The position numbers were made by a program, and so were the translations under genes. The notes below the pieces were generated by a model. That model made no database searches and was not told the origin of the DNA. It saw nothing but the letters and a program-made list of their open reading frames with translations. From the NCBI GenBank assembly GCA_004017535.1, contig SAJS01000023.1:27985-91984 (forward strand): a stretch of 64,000 nucleotides of DNA, written 5' to 3'. The number at the start of each line of letters is the position of its first letter. Position 1 is the stretch's first letter. This stretch comes from Mesorhizobium sp. Its GTDB lineage: Bacteria; Pseudomonadota; Alphaproteobacteria; Rhizobiales; Rhizobiaceae. Shown here piece after piece: positions 20,225-51,884 of the stretch.

Positions 20225-20782
20225 GTGACGGTTGCCGTATCTCCGGATGGGCTTCCCGCGCTGGTGCTGAATGCGGACTACCGCCCGCTCAGCTATTACC
20301 CCCTGTCGCTCTGGTCGTGGCAGGACGCCATCAAGGCTGTGTTCCTCGACCGGGTCAACATCGTCGCCGAATACGAGCACGCCGTCTCCTCGCCGACCTT
20401 CTCGATGAAGCTGCCGAGCGTGGTCAGCCTCAAGGCCTATGTGAAGCCGTCCAGGCATCCTGCCTTCACCCGCTTCAACGTGTTCCTGCGCGACCGCTTC
20501 CAGTGCCAGTATTGCGGCACGCCGGAGGATCTGACGTTCGACCATGTCATCCCACGCCATCGCGGCGGGGCGACGACCTGGGAGAATGTCGTCGCCGCCT
20601 GCTCGCCCTGCAATCTTCGCAAGGGCGGCATGATGCCGGCCCAGGCCAAGATGTGGCCGCTGCAGAAGCCGTATCAGCCGACGGTGCACGACCTGCACAA
20701 CAACGGCCGCCTGTTCCCGCCCAACCATCTGCATGAAAGCTGGATGGATTATCTCTACTGGGATGTCGAACTGGAACCTTGA
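20225..20782 (+). CDS. HNH endonuclease family protein
   Basis: This 185-residue HNH protein carries two zinc-knuckle CxxC pairs (CQYCG and CSPCN). The His-Asn-His core sits in LTFDHVIPRHRGGATTWENVVAACSPCNLRKG. It is found as a single chromosomal gene across rhizobia, not beside restriction or phage genes here, so a housekeeping or repair role is more likely than defence. The GTG start follows AGGAGG by about ten bases. The stop codon is the first base pair of the long hairpin element at 20781. Confidence 0.87.
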   Translation: MTVAVSPDGLPALVLNADYRPLSYYPLSLWSWQDAIKAVFLDRVNIVAEYEHAVSSPTFSMKLPSVVSLKAYVKPSRHPAFTRFNVFLRDRFQCQYCGTPEDLTFDHVIPRHRGGATTWENVVAACSPCNLRKGGMMPAQAKMWPLQKPYQPTVHDLHNNGRLFPPNHLHESWMDYLYWDVELEP

Positions 20783-20923
20783 GATCGTTTGAGAATTCGT
20801 GAGGCTGGCCGTCTGGAGCGATTGTCTGCGCTTCCGATGCTCACGGACCTGAATGTCCGCTGCGCTTCGGTTCTCGACAATCACTCCATACGACTCAGCC
20901 TGACGAATTCTTTCAACGATCTC
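20781..20923. repeat. Long structured inverted-repeat element, copy A
   Basis: The outer arms GAGATCGTT (20781-20789) and AACGATCTC (20915-20923) begin a roughly 45-bp interrupted stem that also pairs AATTCGT, AGGCTG, TGGAG and GATTGTC. An apical stem CGGAC/GTCCG (20844-20848 and 20855-20859) closes on the loop CTGAAT. The unpaired internal sequences TGCGCTTCCGATGCTCA (20827-20843) and TGCGCTTCGGTTCTCGA (20861-20877) recur almost unchanged in copy B at 50666-50784, although the stems there are different. It starts at the HNH gene stop and lies between convergent genes, so it may also end transcription. Confidence 0.7.
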
Positions 20924-20945
20924 GCGTCGGCGCTTTTGTGCTGAC

Positions 20946-21464
20946 TCAATCCCGCGCGAGCGCGCTGCGGAAGGCGACTGCGGCCAGCACGAGGCTGGCG
21001 ATGGCGTTCCAGCCGGCGAGCGAGAGGCCGAGGATGCGCAACGCCGCCTTGTCGCAGGAGGGCGGCACGAATTTGTCGAGCGCGTCGAGCACGCCCTTGC
21101 CGCCGGTGTCGACCGGGCCGGCGCCCGCCGTGCAGTCGGTCGGGCCGGCCCACCAATGCCATTCGACGCCGGAGTGGTAGACGCCGAGATAGAGGCCGTA
21201 GAGCATCAGCAAGCCGCCGATCGCCAGCAGGCCGCGCGTCACCCAGGCCGGCGCATGAAGCATCGAGGCTATCACCGCCAGCAGCATCAGCGGCGCGCCA
21301 ATATAGTAGGGGGTGCGCTGCTCGAGGCAGAGATGGCAGGGGATGTAGCCGCCGATATACTGGAAGGCGAGCGCCGAGCCGACGGTCGCCGCCATGGCGA
21401 CGGCGAGAAACAGGGCCGCGCGCGTACGCTGGCGTCCGGTATCGGCATTCATGGTCGCTGTCAT
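20946..21464 (-). CDS. dsbB: Disulfide bond formation protein DsbB
   Basis: This inner-membrane quinone-linked oxidase re-oxidises periplasmic DsbA. It has 172 residues and four membrane helices. The first cysteine pair is in YIPCHLCLEQRTPYY and the second periplasmic pair in PTDCTAGAG and VPPSCDKAAL. Length and spacing are normal. It is followed 25 bases upstream in the row by the YqaA-family gene on the same strand. Confidence 0.88.
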   Translation of the reverse strand: MTATMNADTGRQRTRAALFLAVAMAATVGSALAFQYIGGYIPCHLCLEQRTPYYIGAPLMLLAVIASMLHAPAWVTRGLLAIGGLLMLYGLYLGVYHSGVEWHWWAGPTDCTAGAGPVDTGGKGVLDALDKFVPPSCDKAALRILGLSLAGWNAIASLVLAAVAFRSALARD

Positions 21465-22412: not shown

Positions 22413-22497
22413 GCCCCTATGGCGGAATTGGTAGACGCGCTCGACTCAAAATCGAGTTCCGCAAGGAGTGCTGGTTCGATCCCGGCTAGGGGCACCA
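22413..22497 (+). tRNA. tRNA-Leu (anticodon CAA)
   Basis: The acceptor stem GCCCCTA (22413-22419) pairs with TAGGGGC (22487-22493), followed by discriminator A and an encoded CCA. The anticodon arm CTCGA-CTCAAAA-TCGAG gives anticodon CAA for UUG codons. A long variable arm and a TTCGATC T-loop are present, as expected of a class II leucine tRNA. Confidence 0.97.
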
Positions 22498-48311: not shown

Positions 48312-48394
48312 CAAGAACTGAGTCAGTTGTTGCGTGAACGCCGGCCGCGGGAGAAACTGCGGCGGGCGAAATGCCCATTGGAGAACAAGCCGCG

Positions 48395-50665
48395 ATGCGT
48401 GATACGGCCGGTGGCCCGCGCGTTCTGCTCAAACGGCTTCGCGAGCTCATGCAGGAGCCGCTGGAGCCGCAGGAGCGGCTCGACCGCATCGTGCGCGACA
48501 TCGCCTCCAACATGGTGGCGGAAGTCTGCTCGCTCTATGTACTGCGCGCCGACTCCGTGCTCGAGCTCTACGCCACCGAGGGTCTGAACCCCAACGCCGT
48601 CCACCTGGCGCAGCTCAGGCTCGGGCAGGGCCTGGTCGGCACGATCGCCGCCAGCGCGCGGCCGCTCAACTTGTCCAACGCGCAGGAGCATCCGGCTTTC
48701 GCCTACCTGCCGGAGACGGGCGAAGAGATCTACAATTCCTTCCTCGGCGTGCCAGTGCTGAGGGCAGGGCGCACGCTGGGCGTGCTGGTGGTGCAGAACA
48801 AGACCATGCGCCATTATCGAGACGACGAGGTCGAGGCGCTCGAAACCACGGCGATGGTGATCGCCGAGATGATCGCTACCGGCGATCTCGCGCGCCTGAC
48901 CCGGCCCGGGCTGGAACTCGACCTGCGCCGGCCGGTGAGCTTCACCGGCCTTTCGTTCAACGAGGGCGTCGGCCTCGGCCATGTCGTGCTGCACGAGCCG
49001 CGCATCGTCGTCACCAACCTGTTCAACGAGGACAGCGAGGAGGAGGTGCGCCGGCTGCAGTCCTCGCTCGGCTCGCTCAGGCTTTCCATCGACGACATGC
49101 TGGAGCGGCGCGAAGTCGCCTTCGAGGGCGAGCACCGCGAGGTGCTCGAGGCCTATCGCATGTTCGCCAATGACAGCGGTTGGGTGCGCCGGCTGGAAGA
49201 GGCGATCCGCAATGGCCTGACCGCGGAAGCGGCGGTCGAGAAGGTGCAGAGCGACATGCGCGCCCGCATGCTGCACATGACCGACCCCTATCTGCGCGAG
49301 CGGATGAGCGATTTCGACGACCTTGCCAACCGGCTCCTGCGCCAGCTGATGGGACGCGGTCCGGAGGACGTCGCGGCCGCCCTGCCCAAGGACGCCATCA
49401 TCGTCGCCCGTTCGATGGGCGCGGCCGAACTGCTCGACTATCCCAGGGACAAGCTGCGCGGCCTGGTGCTGGAGGACGGCGCCGCGACCAGCCATGTGGT
49501 CATCGTCGCCCGCGCCATGGGCATTCCCGTCGCCGGCCAGATGAAGGGCGCCGTTTCCATGGCGGAAAACGGCGACGCCATCATCGTCGACGGCGAGGAG
49601 GGCACCATCCATCTGCGGCCGCAGTCGGACCTCGAGGCCGCATACGCAGAAAAAGTCCGGTTCCGGGCCCGGCGGCAGGAAGTCTATCGCGAGCTGCGCA
49701 AGAAGCCGTCGCTGACCAAGGATGGCGTTCCGGTCGATCTCTTGATGAATGCCGGTCTTGCCGTCGACCTGCCGCAGCTGACCGAATCGGGCGCCGCCGG
49801 CATCGGCCTGTTCCGCACCGAATTGCAGTTCATGGTCGCCTCGACCTTCCCGCGCGCCGAGGCGCAGGAGCGGCTCTACCGCGACGTCCTCGATGCCGCG
49901 CGCGGCAAGCCGGTCACCTTCCGCACCATCGACATCGGTGGCGACAAGGTGCTGCCCTATTTCAAGGGCGCGATCCAGGAGGAAAACCCGGCGCTCGGCT
50001 GGCGCGCGATCCGGCTGACGCTCGATCGCCCCGGCCTGCTCAGAACGCAGATCCGGGCGCTGCTGAAGGCCAGCGGCGGCCGCGAGCTGAAGCTGATGCT
50101 GCCTATGGTGACCGAGCTTTCGGAGATCGCGCAGGCGCGCGAGATCATCGACCGGGAGGTCCGGCACCTGTCGCGCTTTGCCCATCACCTGCCCACCAGC
50201 CTCAAGCTCGGCGCGATGCTGGAAGTGCCCTCGCTCTTGTTCCAGCTCGACGAATTGATGAAGGCGGTGGATTTCGTTTCGGTCGGCTCCAACGACCTCT
50301 TCCAGTTCATGATGGCGGTAGACCGCGGCAACACGCAGCTTGCCGACCGTTTCGACACGCTTTCGGCGCCGTTCCTGCGGGTGTTGAAGACGATTGCCGA
50401 TGCCGGCGTGCGCAACAACACGCCGGTGACGCTCTGCGGCGAGCTTGCCGGCAAGCCTATCTCGGCGATGGCGCTGATCGGCCTCGGCTTCCGCTCGATC
50501 TCGATGTCACCGGCCTCGATCGGTCCGGTCAAGGCGATGCTGACAGAGCTGCCGCTGCAGGAGCTGAAAGACTTCTTCAAGGACAATCTGATGGCGCCCA
50601 CTCTGGGAACGCCGATGCGGGCGCTGCTGCAGGCCTTTGCCGACGACCGTTCTATTCCGCTCTAG
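48395..50665 (+). CDS. ptsP: Nitrogen-type PEP-protein phosphotransferase PtsP (EI-Ntr)
   Basis: This is the first enzyme of the regulatory nitrogen PTS, which passes phosphate from PEP to NPr and EIIA-Ntr. About 756 residues. The N-terminal GAF domain (about residues 18-160) is the sensor that in relatives binds glutamine. It is followed by the EI domain with the phosphorylated histidine in EDGAATSHVVIVARAMG and the PEP-binding barrel (GIGLFRTELQFM, RTIDIGGDKVLPYF, LMLPMVTELSEI, VGSNDLFQFMMAVDR). ATG 48395 has GGAGAAC about ten bases before it; ATG 48371 would add eight residues. The stop directly abuts structured element B. Confidence 0.94.
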   Translation: MRDTAGGPRVLLKRLRELMQEPLEPQERLDRIVRDIASNMVAEVCSLYVLRADSVLELYATEGLNPNAVHLAQLRLGQGLVGTIAASARPLNLSNAQEHPAFAYLPETGEEIYNSFLGVPVLRAGRTLGVLVVQNKTMRHYRDDEVEALETTAMVIAEMIATGDLARLTRPGLELDLRRPVSFTGLSFNEGVGLGHVVLHEPRIVVTNLFNEDSEEEVRRLQSSLGSLRLSIDDMLERREVAFEGEHREVLEAYRMFANDSGWVRRLEEAIRNGLTAEAAVEKVQSDMRARMLHMTDPYLRERMSDFDDLANRLLRQLMGRGPEDVAAALPKDAIIVARSMGAAELLDYPRDKLRGLVLEDGAATSHVVIVARAMGIPVAGQMKGAVSMAENGDAIIVDGEEGTIHLRPQSDLEAAYAEKVRFRARRQEVYRELRKKPSLTKDGVPVDLLMNAGLAVDLPQLTESGAAGIGLFRTELQFMVASTFPRAEAQERLYRDVLDAARGKPVTFRTIDIGGDKVLPYFKGAIQEENPALGWRAIRLTLDRPGLLRTQIRALLKASGGRELKLMLPMVTELSEIAQAREIIDREVRHLSRFAHHLPTSLKLGAMLEVPSLLFQLDELMKAVDFVSVGSNDLFQFMMAVDRGNTQLADRFDTLSAPFLRVLKTIADAGVRNNTPVTLCGELAGKPISAMALIGLGFRSISMSPASIGPVKAMLTELPLQELKDFFKDNLMAPTLGTPMRALLQAFADDRSIPL

Positions 50666-50784
50666 ATTCACGTGAGGGCGGTCTGCAAATGGCGATTTTC
50701 TGCGCTTCCGGTGCTCATGTACCTAAATGTACATTCCGCTCCGGTTCTCGAAACCCGCCATTTTCGACTCGCCCTGACGTGAAT
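50666..50784. repeat. Long structured inverted-repeat element, copy B
   Basis: The outer arms ATTCACGT (50666-50673) and ACGTGAAT (50777-50784) begin an interrupted stem that also pairs AGGGCG, AAATGGCG and TTTC. The apical stem TGTAC/GTACA (50718-50722 and 50729-50733) closes on the loop CTAAAT. The internal sequences TGCGCTTCCGGTGCTCA (50701-50717) and TTCCGCTCCGGTTCTCG (50734-50750) match copy A at 20781-20923, while the stems do not share sequence. It begins at the base after the ptsP stop and ends 20 bases before prfA. Confidence 0.7.
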
Positions 50785-50804
50785 TCCATCGAAGTTCGAA
50801 GACC

Positions 50805-51884
50805 ATGATCAACCTGCCTCGCGACCGCATGGATCAAGTCGTCAAGCGTTTCGACATGCTCGAAGCGCAGATGGCGGCTGGGCCCGCCGCCGATCAATAT
50901 GTCAAAATGGCTTCCGAATATGCCGACATCCAGGAGATGGTGGGCAAGATCCGGTCGTTGCGATCTGCCGAGCAGGAGCAGGCGGATCTCGAGGCGATGC
51001 TCGCCGACAAGGCAACCGATGCCGAGATGCGGGCCCTGGCCGAGGCGGACCTGCCTCAGGTGGAGAGCCGCATCGAGGCGCTGCAGAAGGACATCCAAAT
51101 CCTGCTCCTGCCCAAGGATGCGGCCGACGAAAGGAACGCCATCCTCGAAATCCGCGCGGGCACCGGCGGCGACGAGGCAGCGCTGTTCGCAGGCGATCTC
51201 TTCCGCATGTATGAGCGCTACGCCGCCTCGCGCGGCTGGCGGTTCGAAGTCGTTTCGGCAAGCGACGGCGAGGTCGGCGGCTTCAAGGAAATCATCGCCT
51301 CGGTGTCGGGAAAGGGCGTGTTCGCGCATCTGAAGTTCGAATCCGGCGTTCACCGCGTCCAGCGCGTGCCGGAAACCGAAGCCGGCGGGCGCATCCATAC
51401 CTCGGCGGCGACGGTCGCCGTGCTGCCCGAGGCCGAGGAGGTCGATATCGATATCCGGCCGGAGGATATCCGCATCGACACGATGCGCGCCTCGGGGTCC
51501 GGCGGCCAGCACGTCAACACCACCGACTCGGCGGTTCGCATCACCCACCTGCCGACCGGCATCATGGTGGTGCAGGCGGAGAAGTCGCAGCACCAGAACC
51601 GGGCGCGCGCGATGCAGATCCTGCGCGCGAGGCTCTACGACCTGGAGCGCAGCCGGGCCGACGAAGAACGCTCGGAGTCGCGGAAATCGCAGGTCGGGTC
51701 CGGCGACCGGTCGGAGCGCATCCGCACCTACAACTTCCCGCAAGGGCGCGTCACCGACCATCGCATCAACCTCACGCTCTACAAGCTCGACCGGGTGATG
51801 ATGGGCGAGCTCGACGAGGTCATCGACGCGCTGATCGCCGACCATCAGTCGAAGCTGCTTGCCGATATGAGCCTCGATGGCTGA
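50805..51884 (+). CDS. prfA: Peptide chain release factor 1
   Basis: RF1 ends translation at UAA and UAG. It has 359 residues. The catalytic GGQ lies in [25 protein letters not shown], and the codon-recognition region is in the earlier domain. The following prmC methylates this GGQ glutamine, and the two genes overlap by eight bases. The leader before it contains structured element B. Confidence 0.96.

Follow-up and report, generated by a model that had tools for sequence, protein, structure and literature searches.

The window, a 64,000-nt stretch of a Mesorhizobium sp. genome, contains two copies of a long imperfect palindrome, both lying directly 3′ of a protein-coding gene. Copy A (20781..20923, + strand) is 143 nt long, with 20781-20923 as its outermost pair, and has orthologous copies in other genomes. 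It follows an HNH endonuclease-like gene from the ORF list (20225..20782, + strand, start codon predicted; PF01844, E 6.5e-15, and PF14279, E 2.3e-14) and faces a convergent DsbB-like gene (20946..21464, − strand; PF02600, E 1.5e-32). Copy B (about 50666..50786, + strand) lies between a ptsP-like gene with GAF and PEP-utilising domains (48371..50665, + strand; stop TAG at 50663-50665) and, on its 3′ side, prfA for peptide chain release factor 1 (50805..51884, + strand; PF03462, E 1.4e-68, and PF00472, E 6.8e-43).

Copy A folds into a single long imperfect hairpin of −83.2 kcal/mol (z −8.62), which none of 200 shuffles equalled. Copy B likewise forms a long imperfect hairpin (z −6.58) that lacks the outermost ~10 bp of stem present in most copies. 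The hairpin proposed for 20781-20923 in an earlier note on this DNA is therefore real, and it begins where that note had placed it, at the stop of the HNH gene (the HNH domain being PF01844): the TGA at 20780-20782 forms the base of the hairpin, and its second base (20781) pairs with 20923. As also described there, the arms of A and B are unlike each other and complementary inside each copy. Two strands reported as shared and unpaired are indeed common to both copies (TGCGCTTCCGNTGCTCA without mismatch, and the CGCTYCGGTTCTCGA strand), but they are partly paired, at CCGG and GC; the truly unpaired parts of a consensus of 40 copies from the same genome are TGCGCTT / TTCTC and TCA / CTSC. An apical loop CTRAAT did not hold up as a family feature, as loop length and sequence vary among these 40 copies. 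The conserved apex, TGCGCTTCCGATGCTCA ... CGCTTCGGTTCTCGA, occupies 20827..20877 in copy A and 50701..50750 in copy B (both + strand). At gathering thresholds, the Rfam comparison for which the earlier note had called returned a tRNA (22413-22494) as the sole match in the window and no family for the element; four matches below threshold fall at 20700-21000.

A Repeat Family and Its Distribution

The own genome holds 55 or more copies of the element, hairpin A among them: TGCGCTTCCGNTGCTCA occurs at 55 places with at most one mismatch (42 of them exact) and the reversed pattern at none; a class of repeats, the second option offered for the structure, is what was found. We inspected 49 of these copies, of which 41 were without large inserts; one of the 41 was omitted for its shortened 5′ arm, and the remaining 40 were aligned. 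The RNAalifold consensus of the 40 has 31 pairs, 20 of which show a double change. The suggested covariance-model search likewise retrieved further copies: model R1 matches 21 of the 240 genomes searched for the class and 47 of the 299 for the phylum, the own genome counted in both. The apex is present in 17 of 29 loci returned by the class search (strict pattern) and in all 21 from the phylum search. Order-wide, allowing two mismatches gives a place in 77 of 297 genomes; since low counts are also frequent with the reversed control, only multi-copy genomes are meaningful. Within the own genus, six genomes have 56, 51, 19, 17, 12, and 6 copies and two others 0 and 1; in one other genus, four genomes have 14-20 copies and two have 4 and 6.

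A scan of named genomes yielded at least 116 matching stretches. Among the 80 matches listed are Mesorhizobium, Phyllobacterium, Brucella/Ochrobactrum, Agrobacterium, Bosea, and Devosia, together with sphingomonads, Asticcacaulis, Acidocella, Listeria, Lysinibacillus, and Ureibacillus. Relatives are patchily distributed in Alphaproteobacteria, in other proteobacteria including Escherichia coli, and in some Bacillota. The apex, mismatches included, is conserved across phyla, and the arms diverge yet remain complementary. Termini vary by lineage: E. coli copies end in AGAGCCTGG, those of a distant genome (G346) in GGCCCTGTTGAC, and those of the own genome in TAGGGTGTG-like sequences. The terminal inverted repeats are identical in nine of nine G346 copies, partly shared in the own genome, and different between lineages.

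Several further features of individual copies were observed. Other palindromic repeats are nested inside the element, repeatedly at CCGG beside TGCTC or in the apical loop (orthologs L065-L067, L071, L084, L085, and L090; own copy L041), and the tip of the element appears to be a target at which further repeats land. Relatives of own-genome loci with internal deletions retain just the outer stem or one arm (L297, L305, L316), showing how copies may decay. Tandem copies lie 141-142 nt apart in L443, G627:C4, and G655:C8, with AA instead of TA at the L443 junction.

Filled and Empty Sites

Comparison of orthologous sites revealed that the element is present in some relatives and absent from others. 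Between ptsP and prfA, 25 same-genus loci comprise 6 that are filled, 18 that are empty (8-26 nt from stop to start), and one with other sequence; of five loci from other families, one is empty and four are unresolved. The two genes are 8-10 nt apart in most empty relatives. The idea that copy B had entered the loop of an older terminator hairpin was considered and rejected, as the empty sites measure 8-26 nt and display no hairpin by eye. Of 25 same-genus versions of the HNH locus, 18 carry the element (four with nested inserts), six are without an intact one, two of these beginning with an arm-like remnant, and one could be scored neither way. Short empty relatives were found for four of five further loci of the own genome.

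An insertion can be read to the base in E. coli. Strain 7/2 carries a 145-bp hairpin element in the hemE-nfi gap (173 nt folded, z −9.93), so that the empty K-12 site CGC-TA-AGGAG corresponds to CGC-TA-[145 bp]-TA-AGGAG; the duplicated TA lies within the hemE stop TAA, and the stop is recreated. Places at least 95% identical to this copy occur in 293 of 5,385 matching E. coli records, and all four of those listed are at hemE. In the qseE-qseG gap of E. coli (L524-L528), a relative fills the space, the match beginning 4 nt beyond the qseE stop; this region is present at ≥80% coverage in 5,374 of 5,426 E. coli genomes, and the laboratory strain CJ236 has the copy. Genome G346 contains nine near-identical-looking 140-bp copies, flanked by TA on both sides in eight of eight cases outside a tandem. 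The target there is YTAR, with a pyrimidine before the left TA in 8/9 copies and a purine after the right TA in 8/8. Target duplication is thus seen in relatives (the E. coli pair and G346) and is not directly readable in the own genome. Orthologous sites that are empty in most same-genus genomes (copy B) and a TA-duplicating insertion in E. coli identify the element as a mobile repeat, and the same two observations argue against a purely cis-regulatory RNA, a regulatory or processing RNA having been the first option offered for hairpin A.

Stop Codons, Pairing, and Orientation

In the own genome and its relatives, the element mostly lies in sense orientation behind a gene, with its stem starting from the second base of the stop codon. 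Of 49 own copies, 38 have an in-frame stop located 47-51 nt 5′ of the core. According to a simple gene finder, a sense gene end precedes 42/48 own and 53/81 other-genus copies, a gene end lies on the far side alone in 1/48 and 7/81, and neither side has a predicted gene end in 5/48 and 21/81. For comparison, YTAR sites in the window and 40 same-genus samples fall 523 times within genes, 520 times between them, and 119 times on in-frame stops. Stops therefore account for 119 of 639 gene-sparing sites (19%), and random insertion followed by loss of in-gene events would be expected to place about 19% of copies at stops, half of them in sense. The sense rule of the own lineage is not universal, as five of the nine G346 copies abut the stop of an ORF with 100 or more codons and four of those are antisense.

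Of 181 copies collected, 155 have an in-frame stop at −56..−34, at 121 distinct gene ends. The alignment was anchored on the 12 pairs following the stop, with 8.5 as the minimum; 95 gene ends passed, and the other 26 were dropped. The 95 loci use TAG 40, TGA 35, and TAA 20 times, against TGA 441, TAG 167, and TAA 108 in the background (window and 40 same-genus samples), and stops containing TA are hence enriched. Locus-specific complementarity at stop base 3 reaches 78%, against 45% when shuffled (maximum 61%); at base 2 it is 64%, against 39% (maximum 55%), and at base 1 and over the 20 nt upstream it stays at background. The stem accordingly closes on the stop codon, and the sequence of the far arm follows the type of stop. 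An origin of the far arm by copying from the host flank is ruled out upstream of the stop by the background pairing over those 20 nt, and after the stop it is not obvious.

The earlier note had taken conserved loops with compensating stem changes as a sign of selection on RNA shape. Compensating changes are present, both in the own-genome consensus described above and at the HNH locus, where 14 orthologs free of nested inserts were compared: 88.7% of cells are paired (78.6% after shuffling, no more than 41.4% after sliding), and the covariation score is 0.320 against 0.145 shuffled (0/500). The outer pairs, stop bases included, switch jointly between two clades, and the counts at this locus therefore overstate independence. 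As many doubly changed pairs were reached by 13 of 500 shuffles, and "further pair types" came to 27, compared with 34.6 under shuffles. Pairing at the locus is incomplete, at 42-54 of 54 pairs. Compensating changes in a palindrome can also come from DNA template switching, and covariation alone is therefore no proof of RNA selection. More generally, long covarying hairpins do not prove a regulatory RNA, since palindromic mobile repeats yield the same signal.

Copies are near-uniformly oriented along chromosomes, with an incomplete match to GC skew (taken from 20-kb samples). Neighboring own copies on one contig share their orientation in 33 of 37 pairs. Above 3.4 Mb in genome G004, 28 of 28 copies are on the minus strand, with sampled genes 93 minus and 62 plus and negative skew in 10/10 samples; of the 12 copies below 3.4 Mb, 7 are minus. 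Between 0.6 and 4.5 Mb in G009, 17 of 18 copies are plus, with sampled genes 91 plus and 94 minus and positive skew in 10/11 samples, and over the entire chromosome 19 of 21 copies are plus though the skew changes sign. Owing to shared ancestry, the data from these two genomes are not independent. In the own genome, skew sign matches copy orientation in four of seven stretches (the window, L284, L286, and L289) and disagrees in three (L285, L287, and L288). Against a simple replication rule stand the weakness of the skew, the 4/7 agreement in the own genome, the 7/12 minus copies of the lower part of G004, and the plus copies over both skew halves of G009. Copies also crowd into one half of the chromosome, with 28/40 above 3.4 Mb in G004 and 18/21 at 0.6-4.5 Mb in G009.

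Mobilization and Competing Explanations

Element A is probably a copy of a nonautonomous palindromic mobile element of ~120-150 bp, of the MITE (miniature inverted-repeat transposable element) kind, that becomes a 3′-UTR hairpin upon insertion. The family is short, palindromic, and present in many dispersed copies, as TA-type MITEs are. Under the mechanism we propose, some TA-duplicating transposase would insert the element at the TA of a TAA or TAG stop, and the first base of the element would recreate the stop and leave the host protein unharmed. The element would then be transcribed as the beginning of the 3′-UTR, where the hairpin could alter the fate of the mRNA by affecting 3′-5′ decay, by RNase cleavage, or by delaying the release of the last ribosome. 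By analogy with ERIC, discussed below, an effect at the mRNA 3′ end would be the most likely one. Pairing may be maintained by RNA selection, by template-switch copying between the arms, or by both. A TA-duplicating transposase acting at YTAR would account for the insertions, the excess of TAG and TAA, and the harmlessness of stop-codon sites; sense bias, orientation bias, and variable termini are left unexplained by such an enzyme and its symmetric target. Besides these biases, several findings count against the mobile-element reading: the termini differ between lineages, which is unusual for a transposase-recognized inverted repeat; TGA is the stop at 35 of the 95 aligned loci; and 5/48 own and 21/81 other-genus copies have no predicted gene end beside them. 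In addition, searching viral contigs and plasmids by terminal motif identified no parent IS or transposase; viral contigs with the motif display single ends, and plasmids yielded nothing of note. Phage records gave no element match, and in the 52 viral stretches with the apex pattern no paired terminal motifs were detected.

Other explanations draw on parts of the same evidence. Quasi-palindrome template switching at replication could keep the arms complementary without RNA selection, a possible if doubtful account: arms are 25-45% matched when shuffled across loci and 61-94% paired within a locus (values inflated by the use of these 12 nt for anchoring), and the far arm follows the stop type, a feature outside the anchoring. 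Such copying should erase the internal-loop mismatches, yet these are conserved across phyla, and pairing at locus A falls short of complete in the orthologs. It is unlikely that the element is a cis-acting structured RNA, a 3′-UTR element or processing signal selected at gene ends with mobility incidental or ancient. The fixed position at the stop codon in several lineages, the pairing excess over shuffles among HNH-locus orthologs, the conserved mismatched apex, and the high occupancy of locus A within the genus (18 of 25 genomes) would all suit this explanation, which conflicts with the emptiness of several loci in relatives, the missing hemE copy of E. coli K-12, and a copy number that falls from 56 to 0 inside one genus.

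An intrinsic transcription terminator is very unlikely, even though the hairpin stands directly after stops and often before a convergent gene (25/48 own copies, with sense stop). No T run follows, the T fraction in the 12 nt past the 3′ end being 0.19 in the own genome and 0.22 in other genera. A separate terminator-like site lies within 156 nt in 4/48 own and 8/81 other-genus copies. Copy B, moreover, sits inside the close ptsP-prfA pair, where a strong terminator is not to be expected given that prfA is downstream and that most empty relatives have 8-10 nt between it and ptsP. A REP-like element mobilized in single-stranded DNA form, whether by a Y1 (RAYT/IS200) transposase or through a retro-element, would fit the uniform orientation of copies (33/37 neighboring pairs in the own genome, 28/28 minus in G004, 17/18 plus in G009) but is highly improbable in view of the TA duplication in E. 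coli and G346 and the conflict between skew and orientation in 3/7 own stretches. Y1_Tnp was found in 3 of 24 genomes and RVT_1 in 10 of 24, neither of them in the own genome, and RVT_1 is not tied to carriers; a Y1 transposase or reverse transcriptase was rejected as a resident mobilizer for lack of such a tie.

A variant of the mobile-element reading concerns what the insertion machinery recognizes. It is quite unlikely, though worth stating, that the machinery reads the conserved mismatched apex in place of the ends, perhaps in single-stranded DNA on one fork strand, with the arms free to vary as long as they pair and the hairpin then kept as a 3′-UTR device whose stem includes the stop codon. 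If true, this would account for the variable termini and for one tip common to Pseudomonadota and Bacillota, as well as for the near-uniform orientation and the landing on stops of genes facing one way. A nonautonomous element of this type would be organized opposite to classical inverted-repeat MITEs. The wider interest of the mobile element is that, by landing on and pairing with stop codons, it would link transposition, translation termination, and mRNA fate; an element that pairs with the stop at 121 distinct gene ends and occurs in E. coli is directly testable there.

The small TA-ended palindromic repeat is an already known kind of element. ERIC, Correia (NEMIS), and RUP are described as TA-ended MITEs of 100-200 bp that form a stem-loop and encode no transposase, and an orientation-dependent action on mRNA is reported for ERIC (PMC2229807). 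The present family resembles them in size (100-200 bp), long stem-loop, TA ends, many copies, and absence of a transposase, and differs in that the apex and not the termini is conserved between lineages, copies lie in sense on stops, and two phyla are involved. REP elements are linked to RAYT. They are given as 20-40 bp (PMC3733652), and REP hairpins adjoining stop codons are reported to stall ribosomes when within 15 nt (PMC12306157). The element shares the position of hairpins by stop codons and is unlike REP in that REP measures 20-40 bp and Y1_Tnp is absent from the own genome. RIME repeats are palindromic and of similar size. The text available on them presents dispersed intergenic repeats of rhizobia (PMC2573895), a likeness drawn by description alone. 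QMITE2 of Coxiella is portrayed as a palindromic MITE with one insertion at a gene 3′ end, the stop alongside, and with relatives in alphaproteobacteria (PMC5896051). It is likewise comparable, by description alone, as a palindromic MITE inserted at a gene 3′ end beside the stop. The E. coli relatives, which are ~150 bp with a median of five places per matching genome, may correspond to the RSA repeats of that species, which are comparable in size and copy number; a search of the open-licence literature returned no text on RSA.

Local members of the family may already carry names, with Bru-RS, RIME, RSA of E. coli, and QMITE2 as candidates set beside it by description alone. The literature covered (mainly open-licence papers) gave no account uniting the four, nor one of the stop-codon anatomy. 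Six core sequence strings searched in open-licence papers gave, among the matches listed, hits that all look unrelated by title. Bru-RS1 and Bru-RS2 of Brucella are described as related palindromic repeats of 103-106 bp between or downstream of genes, into which IS711 inserts with duplication of TA at YTAR (PMC10800456, PMC2266754, PMC3163539). They are probable relatives of the element, compared by description alone, and copies of the element exist in the Brucella-named contigs L231 and L240. The contig L240, named Brucella gallinifaecis, has apparently the same HNH gene end, judged by its last codons, followed by an element with different arms; counting L240, three arm types occur at the HNH stop codon across two genera.
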